Source: a virus
Virus record (IMG/VR): IMGVR_UViG_3300025168_000320
Span: 1-33,691 of that record
DNA length: 33,691 nucleotides
Direction: 5' to 3' (one strand)
In this document: piece by piece, positions 16,494-33,691 of the stretch
Layout of the letters: every line of letters starts with the position of its first letter
Numbering within the stretch: position 1 is the stretch's first letter
Notes under the pieces: model-generated
What the model saw: the letters and a program-made list of their open reading frames with translations, nothing else
What the model was told of the DNA's origin: nothing
The model's database searches: none
Position numbers and translations under genes: made by a program

Positions 16494-16528
16494 AAAAGGG
16501 GTGCAGAAAAACAAATAACTACACCCCT
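16494..16528 (-). terminator. Intrinsic terminator after the SSB gene
   Basis: Minus strand: AGGGGTG (16528-16522) and CACCCCT (16503-16497) form a 7-bp stem with an 18-nt loop, followed by TTTTCC. It is 25 bases beyond the SSB stop and before the 51-aa gene, so it would separate the recombination module from the methyltransferase/helicase genes or attenuate read-through. Confidence 0.65.
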
Positions 16529-16552
16529 ATCATCATGAACACAACTAACTAA

Positions 16553-17699: not shown

Positions 17700-17708
17700 A
17701 TATATCCT

Positions 17709-18575: not shown

Positions 18576-18602
18576 TTACTCTCCTATTTATTTTGTTTGT
18601 TA

Positions 18603-19210: not shown

Positions 19211-19211
19211 T

Positions 19212-19394: not shown

Positions 19395-19470
19395 TTATTT
19401 CCTTTTATCTTGTTTGAAATTACCATTGATTTACTAATAAATACAAGAAAAATAATCTTTTTCATTGACA

Positions 19471-19498
19471 ATTTTAGATAAACCACTTATCTTGTTAA
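19471..19498 (-). promoter_or_regulatory. Putative leftward sigma70 promoter with operator-like repeats
   Basis: Minus strand TTAACA (19498-19493), 16-bp spacer, TAAAAT (19476-19471). The spacer carries an inverted repeat AGATAA-5 nt-TTATCT (19476-19492), and the 10-mer TTATCTTGTT occurs twice on the plus strand (19487-19496 and 19405-19414). This sits in the only real gap within the 17-24 kb block. It would drive the 60-aa gene through SSB. Confidence 0.45.
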
Positions 19499-19524
19499 TA
19501 GTCCCCCAAGGTTAGCTAGATATA

Positions 19525-20817
19525 CTATACACTATATTCAAGTACTTCATAGTCCTCTGCTTTATTCTTATCGTAGAACTTAGCCATCCTCTGATCAACA
19601 TATTCTCTAACATCACTATCTAACCTTAAGTACTTGAAGAACTCTTCATAGGTAAGGTCTCTGTTTATTAGTATATCTAGAATCTCAGCACTTCTATATG
19701 CAGATACACCTCCTTTAGATATCTCTATACCTGTATCTACTATAGCTGTACATATCTTAGTCCAATTAAGTATCTTATCTTGATTGATAGTACCAGAGTG
19801 ATATCTAAACTCTACAGAGCCATTGATTATTCTAGAGTGCATATTCATACCACAGTATCTAGAATCATTGTACTTCTCCATAGATGGGTCTACACCCCAA
19901 GAGTTATACCAAGCATCTATGAATTCATCATTAGACTCTATTGCAAGTATATCTGACCTAGACATAGGTATCCTTCTACACCATCTACCATTGTCTCTAG
20001 AAGGTGGTAACATCTTGTAGATTACATCTTGTACAGCCTTACCTAGTAATAGAATATGTTTGAGCTGCTTCCATTCACAGTCTCTAGCGTCTACGTGTAC
20101 GTGTAAACCACAGCTTCTATTAACATCAAAGTCTGAAGAAAGGTATTCAGTTAGATTTGCTATACGATTATATAGTTCATCTCCATTAGAAGGATTCCTC
20201 ATCACCCACTCTACACCACTACCTCCCTCTCCTCTATCTATACTGCCATCATGGACTGGTCTAAACGTCTCTGGGTGATTAGTATCTTCACAATCCCAGT
20301 AATTCCATTCTTTTGTAATGGTTTCTACTTCTAGACCTACTAACCTCATAGATTTGATAATACGATTAGACCTAGCATCTTCTCCCATATTTCTCTGAGA
20401 GTAACTATCTAAGTCTACTTCCTCTTCTCCTTGGTAACATTGTTCGCAGTAATACTCTTCATTAGAATCACTCCAATGTAATTCATCTCTAGTGTGTTCT
20501 AATTCGCAAGTATCACACGTAGAGTAAATTTCATAGTAGCAATCTTCACAGTAGGAATCACCATTCTCCGTAAGACGAAGGTAATTAGACTCTGACCACA
20601 TAGAGCAACCACAGTCATCGCATTGGTATATATCCTCCTGGCAAGAATCACATAGAAATTCCTTAGTCTCTCCATCTACTTCTATAGATTCTTGATAGTC
20701 ATCAGTAATTTCTTCACAAGAGGAACATATCACCTCATCTGGTTTTACTTCTGCAGATGTATTATGGTTAACAGAATGTGTTGTTCCATTAGTATCTGTG
20801 TATACATTTGGTGGCAT
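19525..20817 (-). CDS. Amidoligase (Amidoligase_2 family) with N-terminal zinc-finger array
   Basis: 430 aa. Residues 31-127 hold three successive CxxC...CxxC modules: C31/C34-C56/C59, C66/C69-C90/C93, C101/C104-C124/C127, rich in acidic and Tyr residues. The catalytic part starts at GLEVET (161-166) and continues with HDGSI (189-193), GVEWVM (201-206), CGLHVHVD (236-243), CGMNMHS and SVEFRYHSGT, the conserved series of the predicted COOH-NH2 ligases related to glutamate-cysteine ligase/glutamine synthetase. Such enzymes join a carboxylate to an amine with ATP. Strong AGGAGG 4 nt before ATG. It follows a 106-aa gene and a class-II glutamine amidotransferase, which could supply ammonia or process glutamine. 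Substrate unknown. Confidence 0.85.
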   Translation of the reverse strand: MPPNVYTDTNGTTHSVNHNTSAEVKPDEVICSSCEEITDDYQESIEVDGETKEFLCDSCQEDIYQCDDCGCSMWSESNYLRLTENGDSYCEDCYYEIYSTCDTCELEHTRDELHWSDSNEEYYCEQCYQGEEEVDLDSYSQRNMGEDARSNRIIKSMRLVGLEVETITKEWNYWDCEDTNHPETFRPVHDGSIDRGEGGSGVEWVMRNPSNGDELYNRIANLTEYLSSDFDVNRSCGLHVHVDARDCEWKQLKHILLLGKAVQDVIYKMLPPSRDNGRWCRRIPMSRSDILAIESNDEFIDAWYNSWGVDPSMEKYNDSRYCGMNMHSRIINGSVEFRYHSGTINQDKILNWTKICTAIVDTGIEISKGGVSAYRSAEILDILINRDLTYEEFFKYLRLDSDVREYVDQRMAKFYDKNKAEDYEVLEYSV

Positions 20818-20825
20818 ACATCCTC

Positions 20826-21146
20826 CTAAGCTATTGCGTAGTTAGCAGTTATCATATAGAAAGCCATATAGTTAATCTCTCTAAGCCAACCTATTCTTTT
20901 AAGAGTCTTGTATATACTCTCTGGCTCTACTGATTCTACTATTATGCCTTCTTGTTGTTCTATCTGCTTGGCTACATAGTTAAGATAAGACTCAAATGAA
21001 TCTGTATCTACAAAAGGATTGTTCTTAGCTTTCTTATAGAGTTTCTTCATTACATATAATTTAGATTTTACACGTATTGGATTCTCTATACCAACTACTA
21101 TCGCTGATCGCTTCTTCTTAGATGAAACAAGTTTGTCTATCATCAT
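20826..21146 (-). CDS. Hypothetical protein between amidotransferase and amidoligase
   Basis: 106 aa from ATG 21146 (MMIDKLVSSKKKRS), supported by AAGGAG 8 nt upstream; the first ATG at 21170 is less likely. Overlaps the end of the amidotransferase gene by 29 nt and is followed 8 nt later by the amidoligase, so the three are co-translated. N-terminal half is Lys-rich; the middle (SFESYLNYVAKQIEQQEGIIV) looks helical; it ends in MAFYMITANYAIA. Unknown family; could be a partner, adaptor or substrate of the ligase. Confidence 0.6.
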   Translation of the reverse strand: MMIDKLVSSKKKRSAIVVGIENPIRVKSKLYVMKKLYKKAKNNPFVDTDSFESYLNYVAKQIEQQEGIIVESVEPESIYKTLKRIGWLREINYMAFYMITANYAIA

Positions 21147-22239
21147 CAGACTCTCTCCTTCCATTAACATCTACTATTTTAGAGGTATCATACTCGTAGC
21201 AGCTACTACATATATAACAGCCATGAGTCTTAATAGGGTTGTCTGCCCATTCTCCACAGTATCCACAATCTATTCCCTCTTCATACTCTCTTTTAGAGAT
21301 ATTCTTTCTTACATTGTACTCACAGTCTACACATATATACTCTCTAGTATCTGCATTGTAGATTATATCCCACCATGCTGTATGATTGTTACATACATCA
21401 CAGTCTTTATCTCTAGAGTCTGTGCCGAAGCTATCATTATAACTACTAAACTCGTTATAGTGTCCTCCGAAGTAATTAGTCTCTAACATATAGTTAGATG
21501 CTATTACATTTGTATCATACGACTTCTTAGTGAAGTTCATCTTTCTATTAAACTTACTAGTATCTATAGTATATAGAGTATCATTCTTCAACTCATGTAT
21601 ATCCATAGATATTTCTGTACCTTTAATAGATTCTTCTAGAATGTCTTGTGTAGAGGCATAGAGCAATACTCTAGCTTCTTTCCAATAGCCAAAATAACAA
21701 GGTCTACCTTTCTCTTTTAATAGATGTAGTATATCTCTATTATCCTTATTCCAGGCGAGTGCGTAGTCTCCGTATATTTCATCTAGACATTCTTGAAGGT
21801 TATTATTGGAATTAAATAGAGCAAATACAGCCTGAGAATCTACTTCGTAAACTTCTTTTTTGTTTACAGAGATATCTGTATGGTTATGTATTATTCCATT
21901 ATGAGTTCCAATCACAGAGCCAATGTGGAAGGGGTGAGCATTTTCCAGAGTTATCTTTCCGTGGGTCTTCCATCTAGTATGTCCCAATACTACAGATGTC
22001 TCTGGGGTGAGCTCTTCTATGATCGTATCCCAATCTCTATGCTTGACAAGATTACTTGACTTTTTTAGAGACTTGAATACCATAGGGTTCTTCCCATTAC
22101 TAATAAAAGCAAGTCCTGTAGAGTGTTCACCTCTAACTACTGATAGTGCAGTAAGCTTAGTTAGAACTCTCTCCAGTTGCTTTAACTCGTACTCTGTTTG
22201 TGCGTTTTTCTTTTTGGCTATGCCAAATATTCCACACAT
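21118..22239 (-). CDS. Class-II glutamine amidotransferase (Ntn hydrolase) with C-terminal zinc fingers
   Basis: 373 aa. MCGIFGI places Cys2 as the N-terminal nucleophile after Met removal; VRGEHSTG (35-42), GHTRWKTHG (86-94), NAHPFHIG (100-107), THNGIIHNH (112-120) and GDYALAW (157-163) are the GATase-II landmarks seen in GlmS/PurF/AsnB. Only the glutaminase domain (about 1-235) is present, without isomerase or synthetase domain. Residues 280-347 carry two zinc modules, C280/C283-C303/C306 and C325/C328-C344/C347, similar in style to those in the amidoligase encoded downstream. It probably hydrolyses glutamine to deliver ammonia. AAGGAAAT precedes the ATG. Confidence 0.9.
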   Translation of the reverse strand: MCGIFGIAKKKNAQTEYELKQLERVLTKLTALSVVRGEHSTGLAFISNGKNPMVFKSLKKSSNLVKHRDWDTIIEELTPETSVVLGHTRWKTHGKITLENAHPFHIGSVIGTHNGIIHNHTDISVNKKEVYEVDSQAVFALFNSNNNLQECLDEIYGDYALAWNKDNRDILHLLKEKGRPCYFGYWKEARVLLYASTQDILEESIKGTEISMDIHELKNDTLYTIDTSKFNRKMNFTKKSYDTNVIASNYMLETNYFGGHYNEFSSYNDSFGTDSRDKDCDVCNNHTAWWDIIYNADTREYICVDCEYNVRKNISKREYEEGIDCGYCGEWADNPIKTHGCYICSSCYEYDTSKIVDVNGRRESDDDRQTCFI

Positions 22240-22283
22240 ATTTCCTTCTTTCTAGTTGTTAGAATACTATCATATATATTCCT

Positions 22284-22700
22284 CTATATCCAATAATATT
22301 CTAGGTTATCTGGTTCATTCCAACCATACCTTGAATAGAACTTAAAGTCCTTTCTAAGTAGGTTGCTTCTATGAGATGCGTGTAGCTTTTCTTTTCCTAG
22401 CCAATGTGGCATCTCTACGTTCTCCGAGACTCCTATCATTTCCATAGTATTGTTGTAGCCTCTGAGAATCCATTCCTCTATCATTTTATTCTTGTAGAGG
22501 AGCAGAGCCTCTTCGTAGCCTTTCCACATAGTCACAGCTGGGTGATTAAGCCACCCTCTATAGCTTCTACCTGATTTCGTAGGTACTCCAGATAGAGCGT
22601 TAAATATTTGTAGAGCTTCGACTCTCTGTTTACCTAAACGTCTGTAGTCTAAGGACTGTGCAGAGAGAGTGAAGTCTTTATATGGCAGGAACGTTTGCAT
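22284..22700 (-). CDS. MSMEG_6728-family protein, annotated elsewhere as pyrimidine-dimer DNA glycosylase
   Basis: 138 aa from MQTFLPYKDF at 22700 (family-typical start; GGGAG lies just upstream). Conserved series: MQTFLPY-DF--SA--LD, RLGKQRVEALQI, GWLNHPAVTMWKGYEEAL, EW--RGY, then PHWLG-E-LHASHRSNLLRKD and YSRYGWNEPDNLEYYW. This family is usually named pyrimidine dimer DNA glycosylase/endonuclease V by distant relation to T4 DenV, implying repair of UV damage. The C-terminal HRS-L-RKD box is typical for longer members. Repair of sunlight damage would suit a phage from lit waters. Enzymatic name is inherited, not shown. Confidence 0.75.
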   Translation of the reverse strand: MQTFLPYKDFTLSAQSLDYRRLGKQRVEALQIFNALSGVPTKSGRSYRGWLNHPAVTMWKGYEEALLLYKNKMIEEWILRGYNNTMEMIGVSENVEMPHWLGKEKLHASHRSNLLRKDFKFYSRYGWNEPDNLEYYWI

Positions 22701-22878
22701 CTTCTCCCACCCATACATTCATAATAAGTTCTCTATCATGTGCATCTATGAATCTAATAACACCTATAGAAATTTTATCATTATCATTTCTCGTCTCTAG
22801 CTTTACTGACTTAATCTCTGTTATACCTTTAGAGGCTAGTAATGTGTAGATAGCCGAGTTTATAGTTTTAGTATCCAT
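22678..22878 (-). CDS. Small hypothetical protein
   Basis: 66 aa. Helical first part (INSAIYTLLASKGITEIKSVKLE) and two beta strands (ISIGVIRFIDAHDRELIMNVWV). Overlaps the glycosylase start by 23 nt; begins 1 base before the stop-proximal end of the membrane gene upstream. No motif; probably a small alpha/beta protein. Confidence 0.6.
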   Translation of the reverse strand: MDTKTINSAIYTLLASKGITEIKSVKLETRNDNDKISIGVIRFIDAHDRELIMNVWVGEDANVPAI

Positions 22879-23034
22879 TTATTTTCTCCATATGTTATCT
22901 CTAATCCACCACCTCATAGTATTGTACACATATAGAAACATAGTTCCTATGAATGCACCAAATACATACACAGTATGTAGAAGTCCGTGTCCCTCTCCAC
23001 ACCAGCCGATCAGATGTTTTAGTGTCTCTATCAT
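22879..23034 (-). CDS. Tiny single-span membrane protein
   Basis: 51 aa, MIETLKHLIGWCGEGHGLLH then TVYVFGAFIGTMFLYVYNTM and a Trp/Arg-rich tail RWWIRDNIWRK. One transmembrane helix is evident. ATG overlaps the TGA of the upstream gene (ATGA) and its TAA directly abuts the next ATG, so boundaries are well supported. Could act on the host envelope or be superinfection-related; unknown. Confidence 0.65.
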   Translation of the reverse strand: MIETLKHLIGWCGEGHGLLHTVYVFGAFIGTMFLYVYNTMRWWIRDNIWRK

Positions 23035-23252
23035 TCTTTATCTCTTTGTATTAATCTATCTATAATAGAACTGATATAATTAGGCTTTGCTCTATCTCTA
23101 AATTTCTTTGGGATAAATAATTTATTATCTTTCTTGAAATATTTACATAGGCTGCGCATCAATTTCTCTGTATCTGCTACATATAGACTGCCTAGTCTAG
23201 AGCCACTGTCTCTTATGATGTCGGCTATCTCTTCATAGTTTGATCTAGTCAT
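23031..23252 (-). CDS. Small hypothetical phage protein
   Basis: 73 aa: NYEEIADIIRDSGSRLG..., LMRSLCKYFKKDNKLFIPKKF. The pattern 'YEEIA-II' plus 'L--YF--DN--F----F' recurs in small phage proteins of aquatic phages; no function known. Basic C-terminus. GGAGAAAGTAA precedes the ATG. Confidence 0.65.
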   Translation of the reverse strand: MTRSNYEEIADIIRDSGSRLGSLYVADTEKLMRSLCKYFKKDNKLFIPKKFRDRAKPNYISSIIDRLIQRDKE

Positions 23253-23264
23253 TTACTTTCTCCT

Positions 23265-23453
23265 TTATTTTCTAAATATTTCAGCTCTTACTTTCTCTGT
23301 ATAAAATATTGCTACAATTCTTCTCAAGCTATAATTTTTTAACTTACTCTTAGGTGTATTAAACCTACGTTGTAACCACGCTCTACCTTGTTCTAGTGTC
23401 TCTGGTGGGTATGCTGTATTATAATAGTTTCTACTCATAGAGCAATCTTTCAT
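23265..23453 (-). CDS. Small basic hypothetical protein
   Basis: 62 aa from 23453, or 57 aa if the in-frame ATG at 23438 (MSRNYYN) is used; both overlap the end of the upstream gene. GRAWLQRRFNTPKSKLKNYSLRRI is strongly basic with a possible helix-turn-helix look (LRRIVAIFYTEKVRAEIF). No family recognised. Confidence 0.5.
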   Translation of the reverse strand: MKDCSMSRNYYNTAYPPETLEQGRAWLQRRFNTPKSKLKNYSLRRIVAIFYTEKVRAEIFRK

Positions 23454-23760
23454 TACTTAACCACCCATAGAGAGCTTCTTCTGCTCTGAATAAGTGCTCA
23501 TAGACTTCTGTATGTCTCTCTAATGGAACTTCGTAACCTCTACCAGTAATCTCTATATAACCTATAAAGCTACGTTTAGAGTACGAGTTAAAGCAATTAG
23601 AGTATATATATACCCAGCCTACTCTATCTTCTAGGAACTCAGCAGCTAGATTGCTTTGCGTAGAGTGCAATCTCTTTCTAGTTGCTTTCCATTTCTCTAT
23701 AGGTACATTTTCTCTGATATTTCTATCTCTACATTGGCATTTGTTTTTACTACAACTCAT
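23431..23760 (-). CDS. Hypothetical protein with N-terminal Cys cluster
   Basis: 109 aa. MSCSKNKCQCRDR contains three closely spaced cysteines, but no second cluster except a lone Cys in YSNCFNSY. The middle (VGWVYIYSNCFNSYSKRSFIGYIEITG) is beta-rich. Function unknown. Lies in a run of small genes at the upstream side of the leftward block. Confidence 0.55.
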   Translation of the reverse strand: MSCSKNKCQCRDRNIRENVPIEKWKATRKRLHSTQSNLAAEFLEDRVGWVYIYSNCFNSYSKRSFIGYIEITGRGYEVPLERHTEVYEHLFRAEEALYGWLSNERLLYE

Positions 23761-23798
23761 AGTCTCTACCTCTTTTGTTCATTGTTAGTTTAATCTGT

Positions 23799-24245
23799 TT
23801 ACCAGGTTCTTTCGTCTCTAAGTATTGGTCGTAAAATTTTGGGGTCGTGTCTCTTGACCTCTGATTTGATAGGCTTAAGAGGTTGTCTACGATGTAGTTT
23901 TCTATTATACTTAGTTAAGTAACTAAGCTCTGTCTCTCTATCTCTAATCTTGTTATTATGTTTAGACAGTGTCTCTACTGTCTGCATTCTCTCTTCTGCA
24001 TCTAGAACTAGTCTTGCTAGTCTCCAGTGATTTACTCTATGAACTGAGCCACTATTTCTATTGGTTATCTCTAACACGTCAATCTCGTTATAAACCAGGT
24101 TTCGTAGAAATAATATATGCTCTATTAAGTCTTGACTTCTACTAGCTGTTTTGATCAGACCACCATTTAAGTAGAGGTGCCATTTCTTAGAGAGGTACTC
24201 AATTTCTATAGGTAGAATTTCTCTATGATTATTATTAGCTGCCAT
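23799..24245 (-). CDS. Hypothetical basic helical protein
   Basis: 148 aa. First 55 residues form an alpha/beta part (EIEYLSKKWHLYLNGGLIKT); residues about 80-125 are a charged coiled coil (LVLDAEERMQTVETLSKHNN) followed by an Arg/Lys/His-rich tail. Probably nucleic-acid or protein binding. First gene downstream of the terminator at 24293-24319, so its transcription depends on read-through or an unseen promoter. Confidence 0.55.
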   Translation of the reverse strand: MAANNNHREILPIEIEYLSKKWHLYLNGGLIKTASRSQDLIEHILFLRNLVYNEIDVLEITNRNSGSVHRVNHWRLARLVLDAEERMQTVETLSKHNNKIRDRETELSYLTKYNRKLHRRQPLKPIKSEVKRHDPKILRPILRDERTW

Positions 24246-24292
24246 AATTAAATTTCTCTGTAATTTGTTTAATAGATAGTAATTTTATATAG

Positions 24293-24319
24293 AAAAAAGC
24301 CCTTATTTCTAAGGGCTTT
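24293..24319 (-). terminator. Strong intrinsic terminator
   Basis: Minus strand AAAGCCCTTA (24319-24310) pairs perfectly with TAAGGGCTTT (24305-24296), loop of 4 nt, running into TTTTTT (24298-24293). Only 16 bases past the stop of the 151-aa gene. It isolates or attenuates the first gene of the leftward block from those that follow. Confidence 0.85.
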
Positions 24320-24334
24320 AATCTCTCCTAGTTC

Positions 24335-24790
24335 CTATTTTTCTACCTCCTTTTTTATTGTATCTAAAATTTCATCTACTTTGCTAGGTACTTCTAACTT
24401 CTTGCCGTCTTTATCAAAATAGACAGTAACAGATTTAGCGTTAATAGTAAATTCCTTTACTCTACGCTCTACTCTGACTACTTTGTCAGCTAGTAAAGAC
24501 ATTGCTTTAGTTTCTGACTTGTTATAGCTAGTAGGCTCATAGTTAAAAGAAGTTAATTTAGCAACTTCAGATTCAGATATTCTATACTGTTCCACGTTCT
24601 TAGAGTCTGAACAAAAGTGGATATGCTTCTGGCGTTCTTTTGTTTCTACTATGACAAGTTCACCAGATTCAATAGATTTATCTAGTTCGATTACCTTATC
24701 ATTCCAGCCCATAGAAATCAACTGTCTTTTCATCTCTGCTAGTTCTTTATTTGTTTTTTGTAACATGATATTTTCTTTCCTTTGTTTCAT
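24335..24790 (-). CDS. Hypothetical leftward early protein
   Basis: 151 aa from 24790, or 143 aa from MLQKTNKELAEM at 24766. AAGGAGGT lies 12 nt before the first ATG (long) and GGAAAG precedes the second; the start is unresolved. N-terminal helix (NKELAEMKRQLISMGW), an HIHFCSD segment, and a C-terminal strand-helix (VTVYFDKDGKKLEVPSKVDEIL). No domain recognised. Flanked by a perfect terminator downstream and the repeat-rich control region upstream, so it forms its own unit and may be highly expressed. Confidence 0.6.
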   Translation of the reverse strand: MKQRKENIMLQKTNKELAEMKRQLISMGWNDKVIELDKSIESGELVIVETKERQKHIHFCSDSKNVEQYRISESEVAKLTSFNYEPTSYNKSETKAMSLLADKVVRVERRVKEFTINAKSVTVYFDKDGKKLEVPSKVDEILDTIKKEVEK

Positions 24791-25257
24791 TGTTAGTTAA
24801 GTACCTCCTTTCTACCACAAACTTGACCAGGGAGCATAATGAGAATGAGTCTCATTAGTATTAGTGAGCGTTTGGGATTTGGGGAGGTTGTTCATTTGAT
24901 AGAATTTACAAATAATCTAGATAGTATCAAAGCAATAAAAACAGGTTGACAGCGTGTAAGCGTTATGAGCGTTATGGTCTGAAATCCTGGGCGTACTTAA
25001 GAGGAATGTACTGCTAAAAATATATATTATGCAAGTGTTATTTTGATCTGTGATAATGAGACTCAATCTCAGTTGAGCTAGGTGCTAATGATAATGAGAC
25101 CTAATAACAATTGCACTTTTTTCAACCTAATAATGAGACTCAGTATCAATAGGCGAGGGGGGGGTGTCGGGGAGAGAAAGGAAAGCACACAAAGTAGAGT
25201 AATTTTACACAATTTAAGAGTGTATATTTCTTTTCTATAGAATATAGGGTATAAGTC
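24791..25257. other. Non-coding control region
   Basis: 467 bases between the leftward 151-aa gene and the small ORFs above 25258. Besides the TAATGAGACTCA repeats it holds a direct repeat GCGTTATG at 24960-24967 and 24970-24977, an unusual G-rich patch (25154-25180), and short ORFs only (for example a 36-codon plus-strand frame at 24839-24949 that has GGAG 4 nt upstream). Base composition differs from coding DNA on either side. No tRNA seen. Confidence 0.5.
24836..25142. repeat. Repeated TAATGAGACTCA sites (iteron/operator-like cluster)
   Basis: ATAATGAGACTCA occurs exactly at 25053-25065 and 25130-25142; ATAATGAGAC at 25091-25100 is a third copy in the same orientation, giving start-to-start steps of 38 and 39 bp. 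The inverse TGAGTCTCATTA lies at 24846-24857 within the palindrome AATGAGTCTCATT (24844-24856), next to another ATAATGAGA (24836-24844). The surrounding DNA has no convincing gene, and an 8-G run follows at 25157-25164. This is the layout of replication-origin iterons or of a regulator's binding sites. Confidence 0.6.
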
Positions 25258-25350
25258 TTACATAGGAATAGTCTTATTTGTCCCAAATTCATACCAAATC
25301 AGAGGTTTTTTCATTTCTTCTAGTATACATACCAACTTCTTAGTTTTCAT
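25258..25350 (-). CDS. Very small ORF, uncertain
   Basis: 30 codons, MKTKKLVCILEEMKKPLIWY then EFGTNKTIPM. ATG starts 1 base after the preceding stop (TAGTATG). No ribosome site beyond coupling. Listed because it continues a tightly packed series of three minus-strand ORFs; it may be spurious. Confidence 0.25.
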   Translation of the reverse strand: MKTKKLVCILEEMKKPLIWYEFGTNKTIPM

Positions 25351-25351
25351 A

Positions 25352-25519
25352 CTAAATTGGGCGTTCTACAAGCTCCCATTTTTCATGTATATTACACCAA
25401 TTGCTTTTATTAACAATAACATTGCTATAGATGTGTTGTTTTCCACTGATATCATTTAGAGTAATTGGATGGTGGCTGCATCCGTTTGTAAAGAACCACA
25501 CAAAGAAAATTTTTTTCAT
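25352..25519 (-). CDS. Small protein with hydrophobic N-terminus, possible lipoprotein
   Basis: 55 aa. MKKIFFVWFFTNGCSHHPIT: two Lys, a short hydrophobic run, then NGC, which loosely resembles a lipobox (Thr at -3 is atypical and the hydrophobic run is short). The rest (WCNIHEKWELVERPI) is soluble. ATG overlaps the upstream TGA as ATGA. May be a lipoprotein or a soluble small protein. Confidence 0.45.
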   Translation of the reverse strand: MKKIFFVWFFTNGCSHHPITLNDISGKQHIYSNVIVNKSNWCNIHEKWELVERPI

Positions 25520-25662
25520 TTTAAGTTTTTCTTAACCTTTTCTTTTTTTTTAAGTTTAGTATCTGTTGTTTTTGTTTCTACCCAGTCTCCAAATATTTTT
25601 GTATAATTTTTTTCATAACGAGTGAAATTATAAACTCTACTTCGATCGCCTTTAACACTCAT
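25516..25662 (-). CDS. Tiny basic protein, first gene of leftward promoter
   Basis: 48 aa, MSVKGDRSRVYNFTRYEKNY then TKIFGDWVETKTTD and a Lys-rich tail. AAAGG lies 9 nt before the ATG. First ORF downstream of the minus-strand TTGACA-17-TATATT promoter, after a leader of about 100 nt that contains an 18-bp palindrome. Being the first product, it could be an early regulator; no motif recognised. Confidence 0.5.
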   Translation of the reverse strand: MSVKGDRSRVYNFTRYEKNYTKIFGDWVETKTTDTKLKKKEKVKKNLK

Positions 25663-25682
25663 TATTAAAACCTTTCTTTTTG

Positions 25683-25757
25683 GATATTATATATAATATC
25701 TTTTTTCTTTAGTAGTATATATAATATATATTATATATATATAATATTCTCTTATAG
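25683..25757. repeat. AT-only palindromes in leftward leader
   Basis: GATATTATATATAATATC at 25683-25700 is a perfect 18-bp inverted repeat, followed on the plus strand by TTTTTTCTTT. From 25714 to about 25746 the DNA is an almost pure alternating A/T tract with overlapping inverted repeats. It may be a DNA-unwinding element, a regulator site or a leader hairpin of the leftward transcript. Confidence 0.5.
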
Positions 25758-25768
25758 TAACTATATAC

Positions 25769-25797
25769 AATATAAGGACTATATATATAATTGTCAA
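25769..25797 (-). promoter_or_regulatory. Leftward sigma70 promoter
   Basis: Minus strand: consensus -35 TTGACA (25797-25792), 17-bp spacer, -10 TATATT (25774-25769). Predicted start near 25762, reading into the 48-aa gene and the control region. It is arranged back to back with the rightward promoter at 25813-25841, with 15 bp between the -35 boxes. Confidence 0.75.
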
Positions 25798-25812
25798 GTA
25801 AAATAATAGTTC

Positions 25813-25841
25813 TTGTAAAAATAGTGTATACTACTTATATT
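25813..25841 (+). promoter_or_regulatory. Rightward sigma70 promoter giving a leaderless transcript
   Basis: TTGTAA (25813-25818), 17-bp spacer, TATATT (25836-25841). The usual start, about 7 bases after the -10, falls at 25848, the A of the ATG of the next gene. No Shine-Dalgarno sequence precedes that ATG. A second -10-like TATACT lies inside the spacer at 25827-25832 but lacks a -35. Confidence 0.6.
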
Positions 25842-25847
25842 GAGTGT

Positions 25848-26048
25848 ATGCGAAATTATAAAAAACAAGATGCACTTAGCTATTGTTGTAACTGGGATGC
25901 TGGTAAATGTCTAGGTTGTGATATTCGTAGTAAAGATAATATCTTAATTATGTATATTGATTCTAAGAAAGCTGGAAAGGAATGTACTATTGATAAAGAA
26001 TGTAATTATTTTAACAGAGTAGTTGTACCAGGAATAATTAAAGAATGA
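25848..26048 (+). CDS. Small Cys-rich protein, first gene of rightward operon
   Basis: 66 aa from ATG 25848 (MRNYKKQDALSYCCNWDAGK); a TTG at 25791 in the same frame falls in the promoter and is rejected. Cysteine pattern: CC-N-W-D-A-G-K-C-L-G-C, then AGKEC and KECNYF, about six to seven Cys suitable for a zinc or disulphide fold, ending NRVVVPGI. I associate this C-C-N-W...G-C-x-G-C...C-x-Y-F shape with an uncharacterised aquatic phage family. Leaderless expression from the divergent promoter suggests an early regulator. Stop overlaps the next ATG (ATGA). Confidence 0.7.
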   Translation: MRNYKKQDALSYCCNWDAGKCLGCDIRSKDNILIMYIDSKKAGKECTIDKECNYFNRVVVPGIIKE

Positions 26049-26410
26049 AAAGGAGTCAAATGAGAGAGAAAGAAGTTATAAAGGCGATAGAAACATCGTA
26101 TCCAGAGATGATGAAGAGGTTCAGCAAGATAACAGATGAACAATATAAGTTATTCTGCAGAAAGCAATATGACTATGGTAGCGGCAATATTACACTTGGT
26201 GGAGATTTAGACAAAGAAGACGATAGAATGCTAGCCTTGATTGCTTTGGTTATTAGAATGAACGATAAAGTAAATCGCTTAAAGAATATTCTTGTAAAGC
26301 ATAGAGGTAAGAACGCTGTTACTGATGAAACTTATCTAGATGCATTCAAGGATTTATCTATCTATGGTGTGATAGCTCAATTAGTATCTGAAAAAATCTG
26401 GGGTAAATAA
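26045..26410 (+). CDS. Nucleotide modification-associated domain 1 (DUF1599/Nmad1)-like protein
   Basis: 121 aa. KITDEQYKLFCRKQYDYGSGNITLGG followed by LIALVIRMNDKVNRLKNIL, VTDETYLDAFKDLSIYGVIAQ and WGK matches the Nmad1 pattern K--DYG--N, iRm-DK--Rl, DE---Da--Dl--Y. The family is linked by context to phage base modification and resembles MazG-like nucleotide-binding helical bundles; the reaction is not established. With the cytosine methyltransferase it hints at altered DNA bases. ATGA overlap with the previous gene. Confidence 0.7.
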   Translation: MKRSQMREKEVIKAIETSYPEMMKRFSKITDEQYKLFCRKQYDYGSGNITLGGDLDKEDDRMLALIALVIRMNDKVNRLKNILVKHRGKNAVTDETYLDAFKDLSIYGVIAQLVSEKIWGK

Positions 26411-26487
26411 TGATATTACTTAAATTAATAGAATCTTATATTTTAAAGTTTGCTTTTTTCTTAGTTAAATTGGGAGATAAACGATGA
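26410..26487 (+). CDS. 25-residue hydrophobic micro-ORF between coupled genes
   Basis: MILLKLIESYILKFAFFLVK then LGDKR. ATG shares a base with the upstream TAA (TAATG), and its TGA overlaps the next ATG (ATGA). This fills the 73-nt gap exactly and would be a single amphipathic/membrane helix. GGGAG for the next gene lies in its last codons. It may be a real micro-peptide or only a coupling device. Confidence 0.4.
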   Translation: MILLKLIESYILKFAFFLVKLGDKR

Positions 26488-27449
26488 AATGGTCAGCAGA
26501 GGAAACAAGTATAGTCAGGCAGTATGAGAACACTAGTAAAAAAGCTTCTGATATTTATCAGCAGCTATTTGCAAGTGGTTATGATCGTACCTTGAAAGCA
26601 GTTCGAAGAAAAATTGAGTCAATGCATTTAGGTAAGCCTTATAAAAACCTTGATATCAGTAAACTACCGAAGATACTCATGTTGGATATTGAGACAACCC
26701 CTATACCAGTGTGGGCTTGGAGCTTAGGAAAGCAGTATGTCCAGACTCACAGCATGATGAAAGATAGCAATGGAAAGATTATAGACTGGTATGTCTTGAG
26801 TTGGTCGGCTAAATGGCTTTATGACGATGAAGTATTAAGTGATGTCCTAACATCAAAAGAAGCAATAGATAGAAATGACAAGAGAGTATTAGAATCTGCT
26901 TGGAAACTTCTTGATGAAGCTGATATAATTATTGCTCATAATGGAGATAAGTTTGATTTAAGAAAAATAAAAGCTAGATTCCTTTCAAATGGTATTATGC
27001 CTCCAATGCCTTATAAAACTATAGATACATTGAAGGTTGCAAGGAAAGAGTTTGCGTTAACCTCTAACAAACAAGATTATATTACTAGATTGTTAGGTGT
27101 TCAAAAAAAGCTAGATACAGATTTTCAATTATGGGTTGATTGTATGAATGGAGATACGGAAGCTTTAAAGAAAATGGAAGAATATAATAAGCATGATGTT
27201 CTAGGGTTAGAGCAGATGTACTTAAAGCTTAGACCTTACATATCTGGACATCCTAATATAGCAGTAATGATGGAAGAAAATGTATGTTCTTCCTGTGGTA
27301 GTGACTCATTAAATAGCGTTGGAAAGTATTATTATACTGGTTCAAGTAGATATGAGTTATATTACTGTAGTGGTTGTATGTCTCCTCATATTAGAGGTAA
27401 AAACAATGTATCTGAAAAAAATATATTTATAAGGTCAACTGCTAAGTAA
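26484..27449 (+). CDS. DEDDy 3'-5' exonuclease with HTH start and zinc-ribbon end
   Basis: 321 aa. Residues 1-48 (KWSAEETSIVRQYEN..., RTLKAVRRKIESM) look like a SANT/Myb-type helix-turn-helix. The RNase H-like exonuclease fold follows: LDIET (Asp68, Glu70), AHNGDKFD (151-158) and YNKHD (Tyr234, Asp238), i.e. the DEDDy set, closest in style to YprB-type predicted nucleases. A zinc ribbon CSSC (268-271) and CSGC (295-298) closes the protein. No polymerase domain. It may proofread, trim recombination ends, or degrade host nucleic acid. GGGAG 8 nt before ATG. Confidence 0.85.
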   Translation: MKWSAEETSIVRQYENTSKKASDIYQQLFASGYDRTLKAVRRKIESMHLGKPYKNLDISKLPKILMLDIETTPIPVWAWSLGKQYVQTHSMMKDSNGKIIDWYVLSWSAKWLYDDEVLSDVLTSKEAIDRNDKRVLESAWKLLDEADIIIAHNGDKFDLRKIKARFLSNGIMPPMPYKTIDTLKVARKEFALTSNKQDYITRLLGVQKKLDTDFQLWVDCMNGDTEALKKMEEYNKHDVLGLEQMYLKLRPYISGHPNIAVMMEENVCSSCGSDSLNSVGKYYYTGSSRYELYYCSGCMSPHIRGKNNVSEKNIFIRSTAK

Positions 27450-27451
27450 TC

Positions 27452-27480
27452 TTGACTTTATGTGTAAAACAGCTTATATT
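27452..27480 (+). promoter_or_regulatory. Rightward promoter of the packaging operon
   Basis: TTGACT (27452-27457), 17-bp spacer, TATATT (27475-27480), then GAATATTAA and the terminase small-subunit ATG at 27490. Expected start 27486-27489 leaves a leader of 0-4 nt and there is no Shine-Dalgarno site, so the first message is effectively leaderless. Confidence 0.7.
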
Positions 27481-27489
27481 GAATATTAA

Positions 27490-28254
27490 ATGATTACCCG
27501 AAAGATAAATAAGGTAAATCATCCTATCTATGAGAATGTTAAAGAATTCCAGAGGTACAATCCTGAGGTTGATGTTGTCAGCAATTGGAGGAAAGGCACC
27601 GAGGGTAGCTGGGTAGTTTCAGACGATAGACAAGTTTGTCAGGTTTTGAAACGCGGGGAGTTGCGAGCGTCTGCTTCTAATAAAGTAATTAGAAATTATA
27701 TCAGGATACCTCTGGGAACTTTTGTTTGTGATGAAAAAGTTAAGATAGAAGGAGAGCCTAGGAAGAATCTTTATTCATTTGGCTTGGCTAATAAAAGTGC
27801 TTATAGGCACAAGATTGAGAAAAAAGAAACAACTCAAAGAGAGTTTTTGTTTGCTCAATTTGTGGCTAAAGGCGAAAACATAGTAGATGCTTTTTTAAAA
27901 GCTTATCCTACAAATAATCGTCGTTATGCGGAAGGTCAAGCTAAAATTTTATTAAAAGCAAAGAGGGTACAAAAATTGATTAGAGATGAAATAGACAAAG
28001 TTCTTGTAGATGCTGATATCACTCCTTTGTATCTTTTAGAGCAAATGAGAAGTATTGTAGATAGCGGTGATTCTCAAGACAGAGATAAAATTCAAGCAAT
28101 AAAAACCTTAATGCAGATTAGCGGAATGATGGATACTGAAAAGAGAACTGAATCCGTTGCTGTATTCCAAGGATTTACAAAGGAGCAATTAGATGCGATC
28201 GGGTCAGGCGAAGTCAAACAGCTTGCAGCGGCTGAAAAAGAAGTTGAACTCTAA
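27490..28254 (+). CDS. Terminase small subunit
   Basis: 254 aa. The C-terminal half carries the small-terminase HTH pattern: QREFLFAQFVAKGENIVDAFLKAYPTNN, A-GQAKILLKAKRVQKLI, then ITPLYLLEQMRSIVDSGDSQDRDKIQAIKTLMQISGMM. It recognises the packaging start and hands DNA to the large subunit. The N-terminal 100 residues (basic, beta-like; SNWRKGTEGSWVVSDDRQVCQVLKRG) are an extra domain, perhaps another HTH. It starts directly after a promoter. Confidence 0.8.
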   Translation: MITRKINKVNHPIYENVKEFQRYNPEVDVVSNWRKGTEGSWVVSDDRQVCQVLKRGELRASASNKVIRNYIRIPLGTFVCDEKVKIEGEPRKNLYSFGLANKSAYRHKIEKKETTQREFLFAQFVAKGENIVDAFLKAYPTNNRRYAEGQAKILLKAKRVQKLIRDEIDKVLVDADITPLYLLEQMRSIVDSGDSQDRDKIQAIKTLMQISGMMDTEKRTESVAVFQGFTKEQLDAIGSGEVKQLAAAEKEVEL

Positions 28255-28417
28255 ACGTTGTGACCTTTGTGGGTCAAAATTATTTCCTAAAGCTTTTATA
28301 ATACAAAACTTAGACAGTGACAATATCTACGTAGAATGCGTAAACTGCCTTACTGTTTATGACGAAAAGTTAGAAATAGATAGTGTCGGTTTACCAGATA
28401 TACATGGAGTGAGTTAA
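28193..28417 (+). CDS. Small zinc-ribbon protein overlapping terminase small subunit
   Basis: 74 aa. CDLCGSKL (23-30) and CVNCLTVY (49-56) form one four-Cys zinc site. AAGGAG 7 nt before the ATG, inside the terminase gene, is a strong start signal, so the 62-nt overlap is real. Its stop overlaps the next ATG. Possibly binds the packaging complex or DNA; unknown. Confidence 0.65.
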   Translation: MRSGQAKSNSLQRLKKKLNSKRCDLCGSKLFPKAFIIQNLDSDNIYVECVNCLTVYDEKLEIDSVGLPDIHGVS

Positions 28418-28665
28418 TGAAAAAAGTCAATTTTAATTTAGAAATAGAAGTTCATAAAGATTTAAAAAATGAAATTCTTAAAGAATATATTTCTAGTTAT
28501 CTTATAAATCAACAAGCATTTGATGATTTTAGATTAAACATTATTGGAGGAAAAACCTATCCTAAAAATTTTGAGATAGGTTGTGTAAAGTTTGATTTAA
28601 AAAATGATAAGATAACTGAGATAAGACCTTTAAAGAAAAAAGCTAAAAAGAAAGCTAAGAAATGA
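28417..28665 (+). CDS. Hypothetical protein with Lys-rich tail
   Basis: 82 aa. N-terminal strand (VNFNLEIEVH), a helix, and a C-terminal strand followed by PLKKKAKKKAKK, a nucleic-acid-like basic tail. Coupled on both sides (TAATG; ATGA). No family recognised. Confidence 0.6.
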   Translation: MKKVNFNLEIEVHKDLKNEILKEYISSYLINQQAFDDFRLNIIGGKTYPKNFEIGCVKFDLKNDKITEIRPLKKKAKKKAKK

Positions 28666-29012
28666 AATTAGCTGTATATGGAACATTAAGAAGTGGAAAT
28701 AAAAATACAGGTATATTAGAAAACTCCTCATTAGTTTTTCCAGGGCATCATACTTTTCCAGCAGTTATTCAAAATAATAATGGTTCTGGAACTGTAGTAG
28801 AAGTCCATGATGTAGATAAAGAAGATTTAGCAAGGTATGATATCTATGAAGGCATTAAATCTGGACTTTATAGAAGAGTAAAGGCTGATGTCAAAATGGA
28901 TAATGGAGATATAGAAAATGCCTGGGTGTATGTTGCTGGAGATGAATTAATGCAAAGAAGTAATTCTTTTAAGGTTATTCAAAGCGGAGATTGGTACAAT
29001 AGAAAATTTTAA
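28662..29012 (+). CDS. Gamma-glutamylcyclotransferase / AIG2-like protein
   Basis: 116 aa, full length for the family. YGTLRSG (6-12) is the substrate-binding loop; LARYDIYEGIKSGLYRR (56-72) contains the conserved acidic residues and Tyr-Arg of the cyclotransferase fold; NAWVYVAGD forms the last strand. These enzymes cleave gamma-glutamyl amines to 5-oxoproline and free amine. It may undo or complete the reaction of the amidoligase at 19525-20817, with which AIG2-like proteins are known to be associated by genome context. Embedded between terminase subunits, ATGA overlap upstream. Confidence 0.85.
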   Translation: MKLAVYGTLRSGNKNTGILENSSLVFPGHHTFPAVIQNNNGSGTVVEVHDVDKEDLARYDIYEGIKSGLYRRVKADVKMDNGDIENAWVYVAGDELMQRSNSFKVIQSGDWYNRKF

Positions 29013-29055
29013 CATAGTATCTAGTAATCTTTCTGAAAAAGAAAGAGTCTTAAAT

Positions 29056-30570
29056 ATGGTATCAAAAGACTTAGTTGCTTTTGGACAACTGTTTTTACCT
29101 GAAGACTTTATGAAAAGTTCTCCAGCTCCATTTCATTATGAAGTTGGAAGTAAGTTATTAACTAGAAGTTTAAGAAAGCTATGTATAGTTCTTCCTAGAG
29201 GTCATTCTAAGTCTACAATGGCTAAAGCAGCTTTACTCCATAGAATATATTTTAATCCTAAAGGGAAAAAAGAGTTTGCAGCTTGGGTTTCTGAAGAACA
29301 AGGTCAGGCAGTAGATCATTTAAGATATATAAAAAATCATATTGAATATAATAATGCATTAAATTATTATTTTGGAGATATGATGGGAGGAAAGTGGACA
29401 GAAAAAGAGATAACTACTAGTCGTGGAGACAGGTTAATCGCTAAAGGAACGAGCCAAAGATTAAGAGGTAGGTCTGAATTAGGTACTAGATATACAAATA
29501 TTATACTTGATGACTTTGAATCTGAATTAAATACTAAGACTCCAGACAGAAGAAGAGAGATTAAAGAATGGTTGATGTCTACAGTTTATCCTTCTCTTGA
29601 AGAGTCAAAAGGAAATGAAGGTTCTATCTGGTTGATTGGTACTATTGTTCACTATGATTCTGCTTTACAAGCTATCTATGATGGGTATTTAGAAGCTAAA
29701 GCTAAAAATGAAGAGTACACATGGGATGTTATTTTTCATAGAGTATTAGAGGATGGTAAGCCATTATGGGAATCTTATTTTAATAAGAAAAAGATTAACC
29801 AGATAAGAAAAGATTATGAGAATGTAGGACAATTACACAAGTTCGCTCAAGAGTACATGAATGATGCTAGAGACCTAGCAACTGCTAAATTTAAAATTGA
29901 TAAATTGCAACATCATGACTATGAATTTGTATCAAGTAATAATCAAGCTTATATAAGAGATGGTGAAAAAGTTATTCCAGTAAATGTTTATTTTGGTGTT
30001 GACCTAGCTTACGAATCTAATGCTCACAATGACTTTCAAGTTATAATGGTAACGGCTGTAGATAGTGAAAAGAATTTTTATATATTAGATTATTATCATG
30101 AGCATCTTCCTTTATATGAAATGCCTCAAAAAATATTTGAATACGCAAAAAAGTATTCACCAGTTAGAAGAGTTAACATTGAGCACGTTGGAGCACAGGG
30201 TATTATAAAAGATGCTGTTAATAAAATGGGTGGATTTGATAGGAAGATGGCTCCAGGTATTGCAAGAGGTGTAAGACCTCCGTCTGGAATTAAAAAAGAA
30301 GATAGATTAGAATCTGGATTATGTCCTATTGTTAATAGAGGAAAACTGTTTCATAGAAAAATACATCAAGAAATAGTTGATGAAATGTTTCATTTTCCAA
30401 AAGGAAAGAACGATGACTTGCTTGATGGGCTTTGGTATTCAATAATCAATGCAAGATCTCCTCTTAGTAAAAGCTTTAATTCTGATAAATTTGAGGCTGA
30501 AAAGTCAGATAAACGTAAAGAATCAAAAAAATCTATTATAAGAAGTTGGATTACTGGACAAAGAAGCTAA
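29056..30570 (+). CDS. Terminase large subunit
   Basis: 504 aa from ATG 29056. ATPase: Walker A-like LPRGHSKST (46-54), Walker B IILDDFE (149-155). Nuclease: GVDLAYES with its Asp, and the late KNDDLLDGLWYS acidic cluster. It pumps DNA into the prohead and cuts it. The frame stays open upstream to 28951 and the translated stretch NFNIVSSNLSEKERVLNMVSKDL continues like a normal terminase N-terminus, but it has no ATG/GTG/TTG; ATA at 28999 has GGAG 9 nt upstream. The true start may therefore be unusual. Confidence 0.93.
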   Translation: MVSKDLVAFGQLFLPEDFMKSSPAPFHYEVGSKLLTRSLRKLCIVLPRGHSKSTMAKAALLHRIYFNPKGKKEFAAWVSEEQGQAVDHLRYIKNHIEYNNALNYYFGDMMGGKWTEKEITTSRGDRLIAKGTSQRLRGRSELGTRYTNIILDDFESELNTKTPDRRREIKEWLMSTVYPSLEESKGNEGSIWLIGTIVHYDSALQAIYDGYLEAKAKNEEYTWDVIFHRVLEDGKPLWESYFNKKKINQIRKDYENVGQLHKFAQEYMNDARDLATAKFKIDKLQHHDYEFVSSNNQAYIRDGEKVIPVNVYFGVDLAYESNAHNDFQVIMVTAVDSEKNFYILDYYHEHLPLYEMPQKIFEYAKKYSPVRRVNIEHVGAQGIIKDAVNKMGGFDRKMAPGIARGVRPPSGIKKEDRLESGLCPIVNRGKLFHRKIHQEIVDEMFHFPKGKNDDLLDGLWYSIINARSPLSKSFNSDKFEAEKSDKRKESKKSIIRSWITGQRS

Positions 30571-30576
30571 AAGTAC

Positions 30577-30605
30577 TTGACAAATAACACAATATGTGTT
30601 ATATT
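30577..30605 (+). promoter_or_regulatory. Rightward promoter of the head gene operon
   Basis: Consensus TTGACA (30577-30582), exactly 17-bp spacer, TATATT (30600-30605), followed by an A/T tract and the ribosome site AAGGAG (30621-30626). Expected start about 30612, leader of about 22 nt. The spacer contains the palindrome ACACAATATGTGT (30588-30600, one central mismatch), a possible operator. Confidence 0.8.
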
Positions 30606-30633
30606 ATATATATAGATACCAAGGAGTCGCAAA

Positions 30634-32649
30634 ATTAACTACGTAGAAACTTTTGCCGAGCACGAAGATGCTCAGGCTAACAGAGAATTATGGAGAAGAT
30701 GGAGAGATGCCAGGGCTAACTGGGAAGTAGAATCTAGAGATGCTATTGATTTTGTCTTAGGTAATCACTATTCTACTGAAGAATCAGAAATGCTTCAATC
30801 AGTTGGTCAAGGTGATTTTATTATAGATAGAGTTTATGCTGCTGTAGATAAACTTAAGTCCCTACTAACATCTAGGAATCCGAAGTTTTCTGCTGTTGCA
30901 AGAGAGGACTCTGATTATAAATTAGCCAATGTATGGCGTACTATATTAGAGTATGTATGGGATATCTCTGATTGCAATACTCATTTTAAACAAGTAGTAC
31001 ATGATTATTCTGTTGCAGGAGTTGGTTACTTTTATGTTTATGTAGACCCAGAATCAGATTATGGAAGAGGCGATGTTAAGGTTACAGGGATAAATCCTTT
31101 TCGTGTTTATATAGACCCAGCTTCAAGAGATAGATACAATGCAGACTCCGCTTCTATGATACTGTCTACTATCTTAACTAAGGAGCAACTCCTTGGATTA
31201 TACCCACAACTTGAAGAAATAGTAGATAACATAGATAGCTCCACAGATGAAGAAGATTATCCAGCCTCAAAGAAAAAAAATTCCTCTTCTTCTTTTACGC
31301 CTGATGTGGTTAAAGATTATGATCGCGGTGGCTACCAAAAATACAGGATTCTGGAGAGGTTTGAAAAAATTAAAGTTCCTTATTATAGATTATTTAACAA
31401 GGAAACTCAAGAAGAGAAAATAATAGATTTAGAGTCATTTCAAAAAATTCTATCTGAAAACTCTCATTTGATAGAATCGGGACTGGTAGAAGCAGTTGAA
31501 GTTCTACAGACACGCGTGCGACAAGTTGCTACTGTAGGGCAGATTCTATTATATGAGCAAGTGCTCAACACTGATGTATATCCTATTGTACCAGTCCCAA
31601 ACATTTGGACTAATACTCCATATCCTAAATCAGATGTAAGTAAAGTAAAAGACTCTCAAAGATTAATTAATAAATTATTTTCTCTTACATTAAGTCATGC
31701 ACAAGCCTCAGCTGGTCTAAAACTATTAGTTCCAGAAGGTAGTGTAGATGATGTAGGGCAGTTAGAAAGAGATTGGGCTAATCCAAATGCGGTTATTGAA
31801 TATAATCCTGAGTTTGGTGAGCCACATTTTCCAGCACCTCAGCCATTAGCATCAGAGTTCTATGGTTTAATTTCTAGAGTAGAGCATTATATAGATTTAA
31901 ATTTTGGAATATCAGAATTAATGCAAGGATTTAGGTCTGGAACTCCAGATACAGCTAGAGGAACGTATATGCTCCAGGAGATGGGAGAAACGAGAGGGCG
32001 TTCTAAACTCAAAGATATAGAGGGAAGCCTTGATGTTCTTGGAAAAGTAGTATATAACTTTTGTAAGGGACATTACGGATTTAAAAAGACTTTTAGGATT
32101 GTGCAACCAAATAATGACATAACTGAATTTACCGTTAACAATAGAATGTATGACGATAAATCTAAAGAGTTAATGTCTATTGAGAATGATATTTCTCTTG
32201 GTCAGCACGATATTAGAATAATATCAGGTTCAACGCTACCATCTAATAAGATGGCTGAGTACAATATGTATTTAGATGCTTATAAGTTGGGCTTGGTAGA
32301 CGATGTCGAGGTTTTAAAGAAAACAGAAATCTATGACAAAGAAGGTGTCTTGCAACGGAAAGGTGCTATGAGTCAGATGCAAGGTTATATTCAACAGCTT
32401 GAAGAACAGGTTAAGAAACTAAGTGGTGATTTGCAAACTTCAGAACGTGAAGCAGTAAATGCTAAAAAGCAAACTATCACTCAGAAATTCAAGACTGGAC
32501 TAGATTCAGTTCTTGGTGATATAAAAGATAAAGAAAGAAAAAATCTGAATAAGCTAGAGAATGTAATTGATAAAGCTGATTTGCAGGCTAAGTATGGTCA
32601 ACAGCAAAGACAAGGCGTACAGGGTGCCGAAGAAGGCGTTGAAGGTTAA
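30634..32649 (+). CDS. Portal protein (P22 gp1-like), predicted AUU start
   Basis: 671 aa if started at ATT 30634. Upstream of the first ATG (30790) the frame is open back to TAG 30613 and encodes clear portal sequence (ELWRRWRDARANWEVESRDA, then FVLGNHYSTEE). The only start fitting a ribosome site is ATT, 7 nt after AAGGAG. Portal landmarks: VYAAVDKLKSLLTSRNPKF, SVAGVGYFYVYVDPESDYG, INPFRVYIDP, and a late helical barrel with Gln/Glu-rich coiled coil (QMQGYIQQLEEQVKKLSGDL) and QQQRQGVQGAEE tail. It forms the dodecameric DNA channel. Confidence 0.9.
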   Translation: MNYVETFAEHEDAQANRELWRRWRDARANWEVESRDAIDFVLGNHYSTEESEMLQSVGQGDFIIDRVYAAVDKLKSLLTSRNPKFSAVAREDSDYKLANVWRTILEYVWDISDCNTHFKQVVHDYSVAGVGYFYVYVDPESDYGRGDVKVTGINPFRVYIDPASRDRYNADSASMILSTILTKEQLLGLYPQLEEIVDNIDSSTDEEDYPASKKKNSSSSFTPDVVKDYDRGGYQKYRILERFEKIKVPYYRLFNKETQEEKIIDLESFQKILSENSHLIESGLVEAVEVLQTRVRQVATVGQILLYEQVLNTDVYPIVPVPNIWTNTPYPKSDVSKVKDSQRLINKLFSLTLSHAQASAGLKLLVPEGSVDDVGQLERDWANPNAVIEYNPEFGEPHFPAPQPLASEFYGLISRVEHYIDLNFGISELMQGFRSGTPDTARGTYMLQEMGETRGRSKLKDIEGSLDVLGKVVYNFCKGHYGFKKTFRIVQPNNDITEFTVNNRMYDDKSKELMSIENDISLGQHDIRIISGSTLPSNKMAEYNMYLDAYKLGLVDDVEVLKKTEIYDKEGVLQRKGAMSQMQGYIQQLEEQVKKLSGDLQTSEREAVNAKKQTITQKFKTGLDSVLGDIKDKERKNLNKLENVIDKADLQAKYGQQQRQGVQGAEEGVEG

Positions 32650-32728
32650 CAAATAGAGTCAAGCTTTACCCTAAGGGATATCTATTGGTATCGCCCAATT
32701 TAAGAGTAAAGAGATTCGGAAAGAATAA

Positions 32729-33604
32729 ATGGAAAACCAGAAAACAGAACCGATAGGAAAAACTTACGAGGATAAGTTAGTTGAAGAGCGTGAAGGAATT
32801 GATATATCAATGCCAGACGTAGAAGTAGTTAGTAAAGAATATCCAGCAGGCGAAGAACTAGAAGCTCAAGGCGAAGGTCTTGATAGGTCTCCTAGTGTTA
32901 TTAGTGCTGAAGGTAATGAAGATAGTATTGATTATGGTACTGATTGGGAAAATGAAACTAAAAAATTCCAATCTATGTACGATAGACAAAAATCTGAGTA
33001 CGATTCTTTACAATCTCAAGTTCAACAAATGGAACCTCTAAAACAATTGCAAAATGTTTTAGAATCTAGACCTGATATAGTTCAAACTATACAGGAAAAA
33101 TTGCAAGGAAAACCTATTAAAAACAATGAAACTATTCAACCTGATAATCAAGTTGATGAAGCTTCATTTGACCCATGGGAAGCCTATTACAAAACCGACT
33201 CTCCCTCGTTTAAATTACGAGAAGAGAAGGAAACGGCTTTGGTTAACAAAGCAGTCACCGAACAGATGGCTGGTATCCAAAGTCAAGTTGCTATGCAAAA
33301 TTTAAAAGGTGAGTTAAAGTCTAAGTATGGTATGGAAAATGATAGTGAAGTAAATGAATTTATTGATTTTGCAATGACTCCTAGAGATCAATTGCCTGTC
33401 GACTTTCTAATTAATGTTTATCGACAGTTTTACAATAAAGGCGTTAACGCTCCTTCATCTGAAAATATACAAGCTGTGACTAATACTCAAGCTATGCCAA
33501 AGTCAGCTGGCGTTTTACAAGGCGGTGAGCCTAGCGTAAAAAGTGAAGTTGATGTTTCTTGGGATAGGATTTTAAAAGCTGGCAACGCAGGAAGATTACT
33601 TTAA
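32729..33604 (+). CDS. Scaffolding protein (capsid assembly)
   Basis: 291 aa, acidic N-terminal half, then a coiled coil (FQSMYDRQKSEYDSLQSQVQ, about 80-100), Gln-rich helices and a short C-terminal basic segment (WDRILKAGNAGRLL), the usual make-up of podovirus scaffolds, located between portal and capsid genes. The 79-nt gap before it has a short hairpin (CCCTAAGGG palindrome at 32671-32679) and CGGAAAG 6 nt before the ATG. Identity inferred from order and composition. Confidence 0.75.
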   Translation: MENQKTEPIGKTYEDKLVEEREGIDISMPDVEVVSKEYPAGEELEAQGEGLDRSPSVISAEGNEDSIDYGTDWENETKKFQSMYDRQKSEYDSLQSQVQQMEPLKQLQNVLESRPDIVQTIQEKLQGKPIKNNETIQPDNQVDEASFDPWEAYYKTDSPSFKLREEKETALVNKAVTEQMAGIQSQVAMQNLKGELKSKYGMENDSEVNEFIDFAMTPRDQLPVDFLINVYRQFYNKGVNAPSSENIQAVTNTQAMPKSAGVLQGGEPSVKSEVDVSWDRILKAGNAGRLL

Positions 33605-33632
33605 AATAAAAAAATAACGGAGGTTATTAAAA

Positions 33633-33691
33633 ATGGCTATTACACAGGGAACTAAACTCTCTAGTAATATTACGGCTGCAGCAACTAGTGC
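33633..33691 (+). CDS. Major capsid protein, N-terminal fragment (presumed)
   Basis: ATG 33633 is preceded by CGGAGG with a 9-nt gap, the strongest ribosome site in the head operon, fitting a very abundant product. The 19 visible codons read MAITQGTKLSSNITAAATS before the window ends. The position after the scaffold gene is that of the major capsid protein in podoviruses; the fragment alone cannot prove it. Confidence 0.6.
   Translation, partial: MAITQGTKLSSNITAAATS

Follow-up and report, generated by a model that had tools for sequence, protein, structure and literature searches.

The portal gene of the virus analysed here begins, with very little room for doubt, at an AUU codon, and comparison with related viruses assigns the same site, occupied by AUU, AUC, AUA or UUG, to the portal genes of the whole clade to which it belongs. 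The clade-wide extent of this trait, together with a leaderless-type ATG in the sister clade, is beyond what a single window could show. The window, that is, the whole stretch of DNA that was analysed, comprises the 33,691 bases of an IMG/VR virus record and has a GC content of 34%, and the elements around the portal start in it are as follows.

30613-30615, + strand: in-frame TAG stop, which closes the portal frame on the upstream side
30621-30626, + strand: Shine-Dalgarno (SD) motif AAGGAG, 7 nt ahead of the start codon
30634-30636, + strand: AUU codon (ATT AAC TAC) assigned as the start of the portal gene; never ATG at the homologous site in 91 relatives
30634-32649, + strand: portal protein gene, 671 aa, P22-like (PF16510 and PHROG 156), with its stop at 32647-32649
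30790-30792, + strand: first in-frame ATG of the portal frame, read as an internal Met codon and not as the start; unconserved

Start site of the portal gene

From the ATT at 30634 onwards, the portal frame of the window contains no ATG, GTG or TTG until the ATG at 30790, where the mechanical list of open reading frames opens the gene; a start at this position would remove 52 residues from the protein. The portal matches PF16510 with E=6e-49 (residues 18-582 on profile positions 2-550) and a score of 167.5 bits against the curated cut-off of 26.1, which makes it a P22-like portal over most of its length, and it matches PHROG 156 with E=6e-65 (residues 22-661 on profile positions 19-629). Since the alignment to either profile begins near residue 20 of the protein read from the AUU, the N-terminus is complete with the AUU, and its predicted sequence with Met at 30634 is MNYVETFAEHEDAQANR, or the form without Met. 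Within the window alone, the SD-ATT pair of the portal is weak evidence, since a six-nucleotide SD with an ATH codon 5-9 nt behind it turns up 7 times on the + strand of this AT-rich sequence.

Relatives were gathered from IMG/VR by means of the window protein, alignments, DNA patterns and more distant members, which yielded several hundred contigs; once duplicates had been taken out, 153 portal 5' ends were classifiable, 91 of them non-ATG and 62 ATG, the start codons being set by rule (SD plus position) and the sequences not being independent samples. In the window's clade, the 91 distinct 5' ends carry ATT (58), ATC (23), ATA (8) or TTG (2), and in every one of them this codon sits 4-8 nt after an SD, the forms of which include AAGGAG, AGGAG, GGGGGA, GAGGT and AGGTG. 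A codon-blind DNA pattern placed downstream of the start recovered 64 close portal contigs from IMG/VR, of which 62 have ATT, 2 have ATC and none has ATG, and an assembly error is thereby excluded. Entropy in the 91 sequences is 0.15 bit at nucleotide +1 and 0 at nucleotide +2; at the protein level, column 1 holds I in 89 and L in 2 (0.15 bit), compared with 1.5-2.8 bits in columns 2-12. A residue that is conserved alone, at SD distance, and that gives way to Leu only as TTG behaves as a start codon and not as a conserved Ile, and the TTG sequences (L254, L294 and L231/L297) show, at the level of sequence comparison, that the position is able to hold a standard weak start. Judged from these alignments, the conservation of the non-ATG portal start across the 91 relatives is not a matter of chance; what is found in the window and its relatives corresponds to an infC-like AUH start, with an AUH codon at SD distance and no usable canonical start.

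In a tree of 149 portals (variable N-terminus left out, quick search, LG+G4), in which only the deep split and the change counts are relied on, the 62 ATG portals are separated from 87 non-ATG portals with an SH-aLRT of 100. The whole tree contains 7 start-codon changes, one of which is the ATG/non-ATG split, and no reversal to ATG occurs inside the 87-row clade; with neither ATG nor GTG in any of the 91 sequences (0/91), the avoidance of AUG is conserved. Among prokaryotes, changes from ancestral GUG or UUG to AUG are more frequent than changes from AUG to other codons, and a change to AUU was recorded once among 61,358 ancestral AUG starts of bacteria and archaea (PMC5622118); the long retention of AUH despite this usual drift to AUG points to selection for a weak start.

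The reading in which the Ile codon is internal, and translation proceeds from 30790 or from upstream through frameshift or readthrough, draws on the fact that the portal frame of the window has its first canonical start at ATG 30790, and it is the least probable of those considered here. The Met of 30790 is replaced by other residues in relatives, and pN/pS is 0.147 for portal codons 2-52 and 0.103 for codons 53-200; as codons 2-52 are constrained as protein, 30790 is not the portal start. Further points against an internal Ile are the SD at start distance from the codon in all 91 sequences, the frame of the relatives being closed upstream by stops at varying short distances, the promoter just before the frame, and the presence at the same position, in two relatives, of TTG, a standard start.

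The AUU start had been proposed in the initial annotation, together with the TAG at 30613, the AAGGAG at 30621-30626, the 7-nt spacing to ATT AAC TAC and the lack of any NTG before 30790; these coordinates were confirmed in the window, and the start itself was borne out by the relatives. Two possibilities raised at the same time, namely, that ATT is an assembly error for ATG and that relatives start at the position of 30790, fell away on comparison.

Portal codons 2-9 (window 30637-30660) show few synonymous differences in the window's subgroup, and TAC GTA GAA is invariant there. This low synonymous variation perhaps reflects an initiation-related constraint; over codons 1-10, 4 of 9 columns have a single codon, which is suggestive only. 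A conserved RNA hairpin masking the portal SD or start was not supported, the predicted folds differing among relatives.

Promoter, neighbouring genes and the sister clade

The transcription signal ahead of the portal and the starts of the adjacent genes are located as follows.

28999-29001, + strand: AUA codon, candidate start of the gene for the terminase large subunit, 9 nt after GGAG (28986-28989); overlaps the end of the upstream gene
30577-30605, + strand: sigma-70 consensus promoter TTGACA-17-TATATT, immediately ahead of the portal gene, with transcription expected to begin near 30612
32729-33604, + strand: next gene, in the scaffolding-protein position, with no family match; ATG start
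33633-33691, + strand: following gene, in the major-capsid-protein position; GGAGG then ATG; runs off the window

The promoter is the best + strand site in 25000-33691, with 11/12 matches and a TG before the -10 box, and it scores 11/12 in 57 of the 91 relatives; as the -10 box mostly lies 23-41 nt ahead of the portal start, the transcript would have a short leader carrying the SD. An inverted repeat located in the spacer that separates the -35 box from the -10 box (window sequence ACACA-ATA-TGTGT) was considered as a possible operator and rejected (mean p 0.62 over 47 distinct spacers). The gene after the portal has ATG in 74 of 79 relatives and an SD in 74 of 79, and the gene in the major-capsid position has SD and ATG in relatives too; since the next gene has an SD-ATG start on the same transcript, the unusual start is specific to the portal within the operon.

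Elsewhere in the window, a second TTGACA-17-TATATT site lies on the - strand (25797-25769), and about 1 kb between the divergent operons (24790-25791) is without a clear gene. The divergent module on the - strand (11863-24790) encodes a DnaB helicase, a C5 cytosine methylase, a Sak annealing protein and a PD-(D/E)XK nuclease, as well as a putative amidoligase (19525-20817) and a class II glutamine amidotransferase (21118-22239).

In the sister clade, all 62 portals start at ATG and none has an SD. Each of them has a -10-like box whose end lies 5-8 nt ahead of the ATG, with a match of at least 4/6 in 62/62 and of at least 5/6 in 36, against 4.2 in shuffles; from this spacing, the portal mRNA of the sister clade is probably leaderless. 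The gene after the portal has an SD-ATG start in all 57 of the 57 sequences. In sister-clade portals (L221, L362-L441), the ATG stands about 7 nt after a TATATT or TAAATT -10 box, and Ile predominates at the second codon (MIQED, MIEQD, MIPQD). In the same clade, eight terminase loci have a start (ATG, GTG or TTG) that coincides with or adjoins the upstream stop and shows no evident SD.

The terminase of the window's clade may itself depart from the listed start. The ATG at 29056 is unconserved, with ATA or TTA there in close relatives and the frame continuing upstream, and 57 of the 58 matched sequences have the ATA of 28999, while the codon five positions before it is variously ATG, GTG, GCG or ACG; two terminase loci have no in-frame NTG ahead of the conserved domain. 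The terminase may thus start at AUA 28999 rather than at ATG 29056, which is taken as a lead and not as a result, because the coding constraint of the upstream gene at the overlap confounds the test.

Possible function of the non-AUG start

The best reading, and a probable one, is that a weak and conserved start keeps the portal scarce in comparison with scaffold and capsid; the initial annotation had suggested that the start could limit portal synthesis. The start is set by comparison, and its purpose is what we infer. A strong sigma-70-type promoter would give a short leader with an SD and a non-AUG portal start 4-8 nt after it; the host fMet-tRNA (anticodon CAU) would read AUU, AUC, AUA or UUG inefficiently as a start, and initiation factor 3 (IF3) would reject many of the portal initiation complexes. 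The portal would then be made at a low rate, with scaffold and capsid produced in excess from the same mRNA via SD-AUG starts, and the sister clade seems to have reached weak, IF3-sensitive initiation by another route, the leaderless AUG mRNA. In other phages, too much portal is damaging to assembly. Two points count against a dosage role: the weak portal codon could be compensated in part by the strong SD and promoter, and several other genes of the window are without a clear SD, suggesting that initiation signals are loose in general in this phage. On the side of the translation machinery, IF3 disfavours the pairing of AUU with CAU in vitro (PMC10158994) and is reported as an inhibitor of non-canonical starts, leaderless mRNAs and SD-less re-initiation (PMC2268962); the P22 head contains 12 portal copies, compared with 415 coat and 60-300 scaffolding proteins (PMC9962691).

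A broader proposal, put forward tentatively, is that the phage lineage sets the level of the DNA-packaging motor (portal and terminase) via IF3-disfavoured initiation, while scaffold and capsid keep SD-AUG starts; AUH would serve in one clade, and a leaderless AUG portal plus an SD-less terminase next to the upstream stop would serve in the sister clade. If this were true, initiation fidelity would act as a control on virion assembly, through dosage or timing.

Two other accounts take the same codon to be something other than a passive brake. The AUH start may be regulated, portal synthesis following the free IF3:ribosome ratio during infection so that the packaging parts are timed; sensitivity to IF3 is a property of AUH starts and of leaderless starts alike (PMC2268962), each sister clade using one of the two, and the terminase may start at AUA too, but a passive low rate accounts for the same data, and such a timing switch is considered rather unlikely. 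Far less likely still is efficient reading of AUU and AUC by a dedicated initiator tRNA, of phage or host origin, or by a phage-modified ribosome, which would render the start phage-selective, not weak. The strictly non-AUG codon throughout the clade would suit such a device; however, a search for tRNA genes in the window and in 34 related loci (most of them partial) found none, AUA and UUG are also used and would not be read by a GAU anticodon, and other genes of this phage use AUG, those that follow the portal on its transcript with an SD-ATG start, so that the selectivity for a phage-modified ribosome suggested in the initial annotation was not upheld. With regard to the host, no portal or terminase relatives were found among GTDB genomes.

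Returning to the rate-limiting start as the preferred reading, an AUH codon fixed in a structural gene over a large phage clade, with a sister clade that seems to use a different weak route, provides a natural experiment in which selection for inefficient initiation can be studied, and, if the reading is right, it would tie the initiation fidelity of IF3 to virion stoichiometry. In practical terms, gene callers that accept only ATG, GTG and TTG truncate the portal N-terminus in such genomes.

Relation to known systems

A few bacterial genes are known to use AUH starts. No AUU/ATT start in a phage structural gene was found in the open-access literature, and an earlier report may exist elsewhere. 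The gene infC, which encodes IF3 and starts at AUU in E. coli and at ATC in Streptomyces, resembles the portal in its AUU/AUC start, and repression by IF3 is known for infC (PMC5472188); it differs in being a host gene whose codon is used for autoregulation, whereas the portal gene is a phage structural gene with no known feedback. In sigR of Streptomyces, a non-canonical GTC start, repressed by IF3, sets the ratio of two operon products (PMC5472188), a role to which we infer a likeness in the portal; sigR, however, is a host sigma factor with GTC in a single genus, and the portal has AUH codons across a phage clade. Leaderless AUG mRNAs are comparable to the portal mRNA of the sister clade as predicted here, with a -10 box about 7 nt before the ATG and no SD, and they are unlike the window's clade, where a leader with an SD precedes a non-AUG start. 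Finally, the P22-like portals (PF16510, PHROG 156) belong to the same family and share the gene order of terminase, portal, scaffold position and capsid position, although the annotated phage portals among them, about 20% identical to that of the window (MW202615, KPP25, BA3 and others), have ATG or GTG starts.
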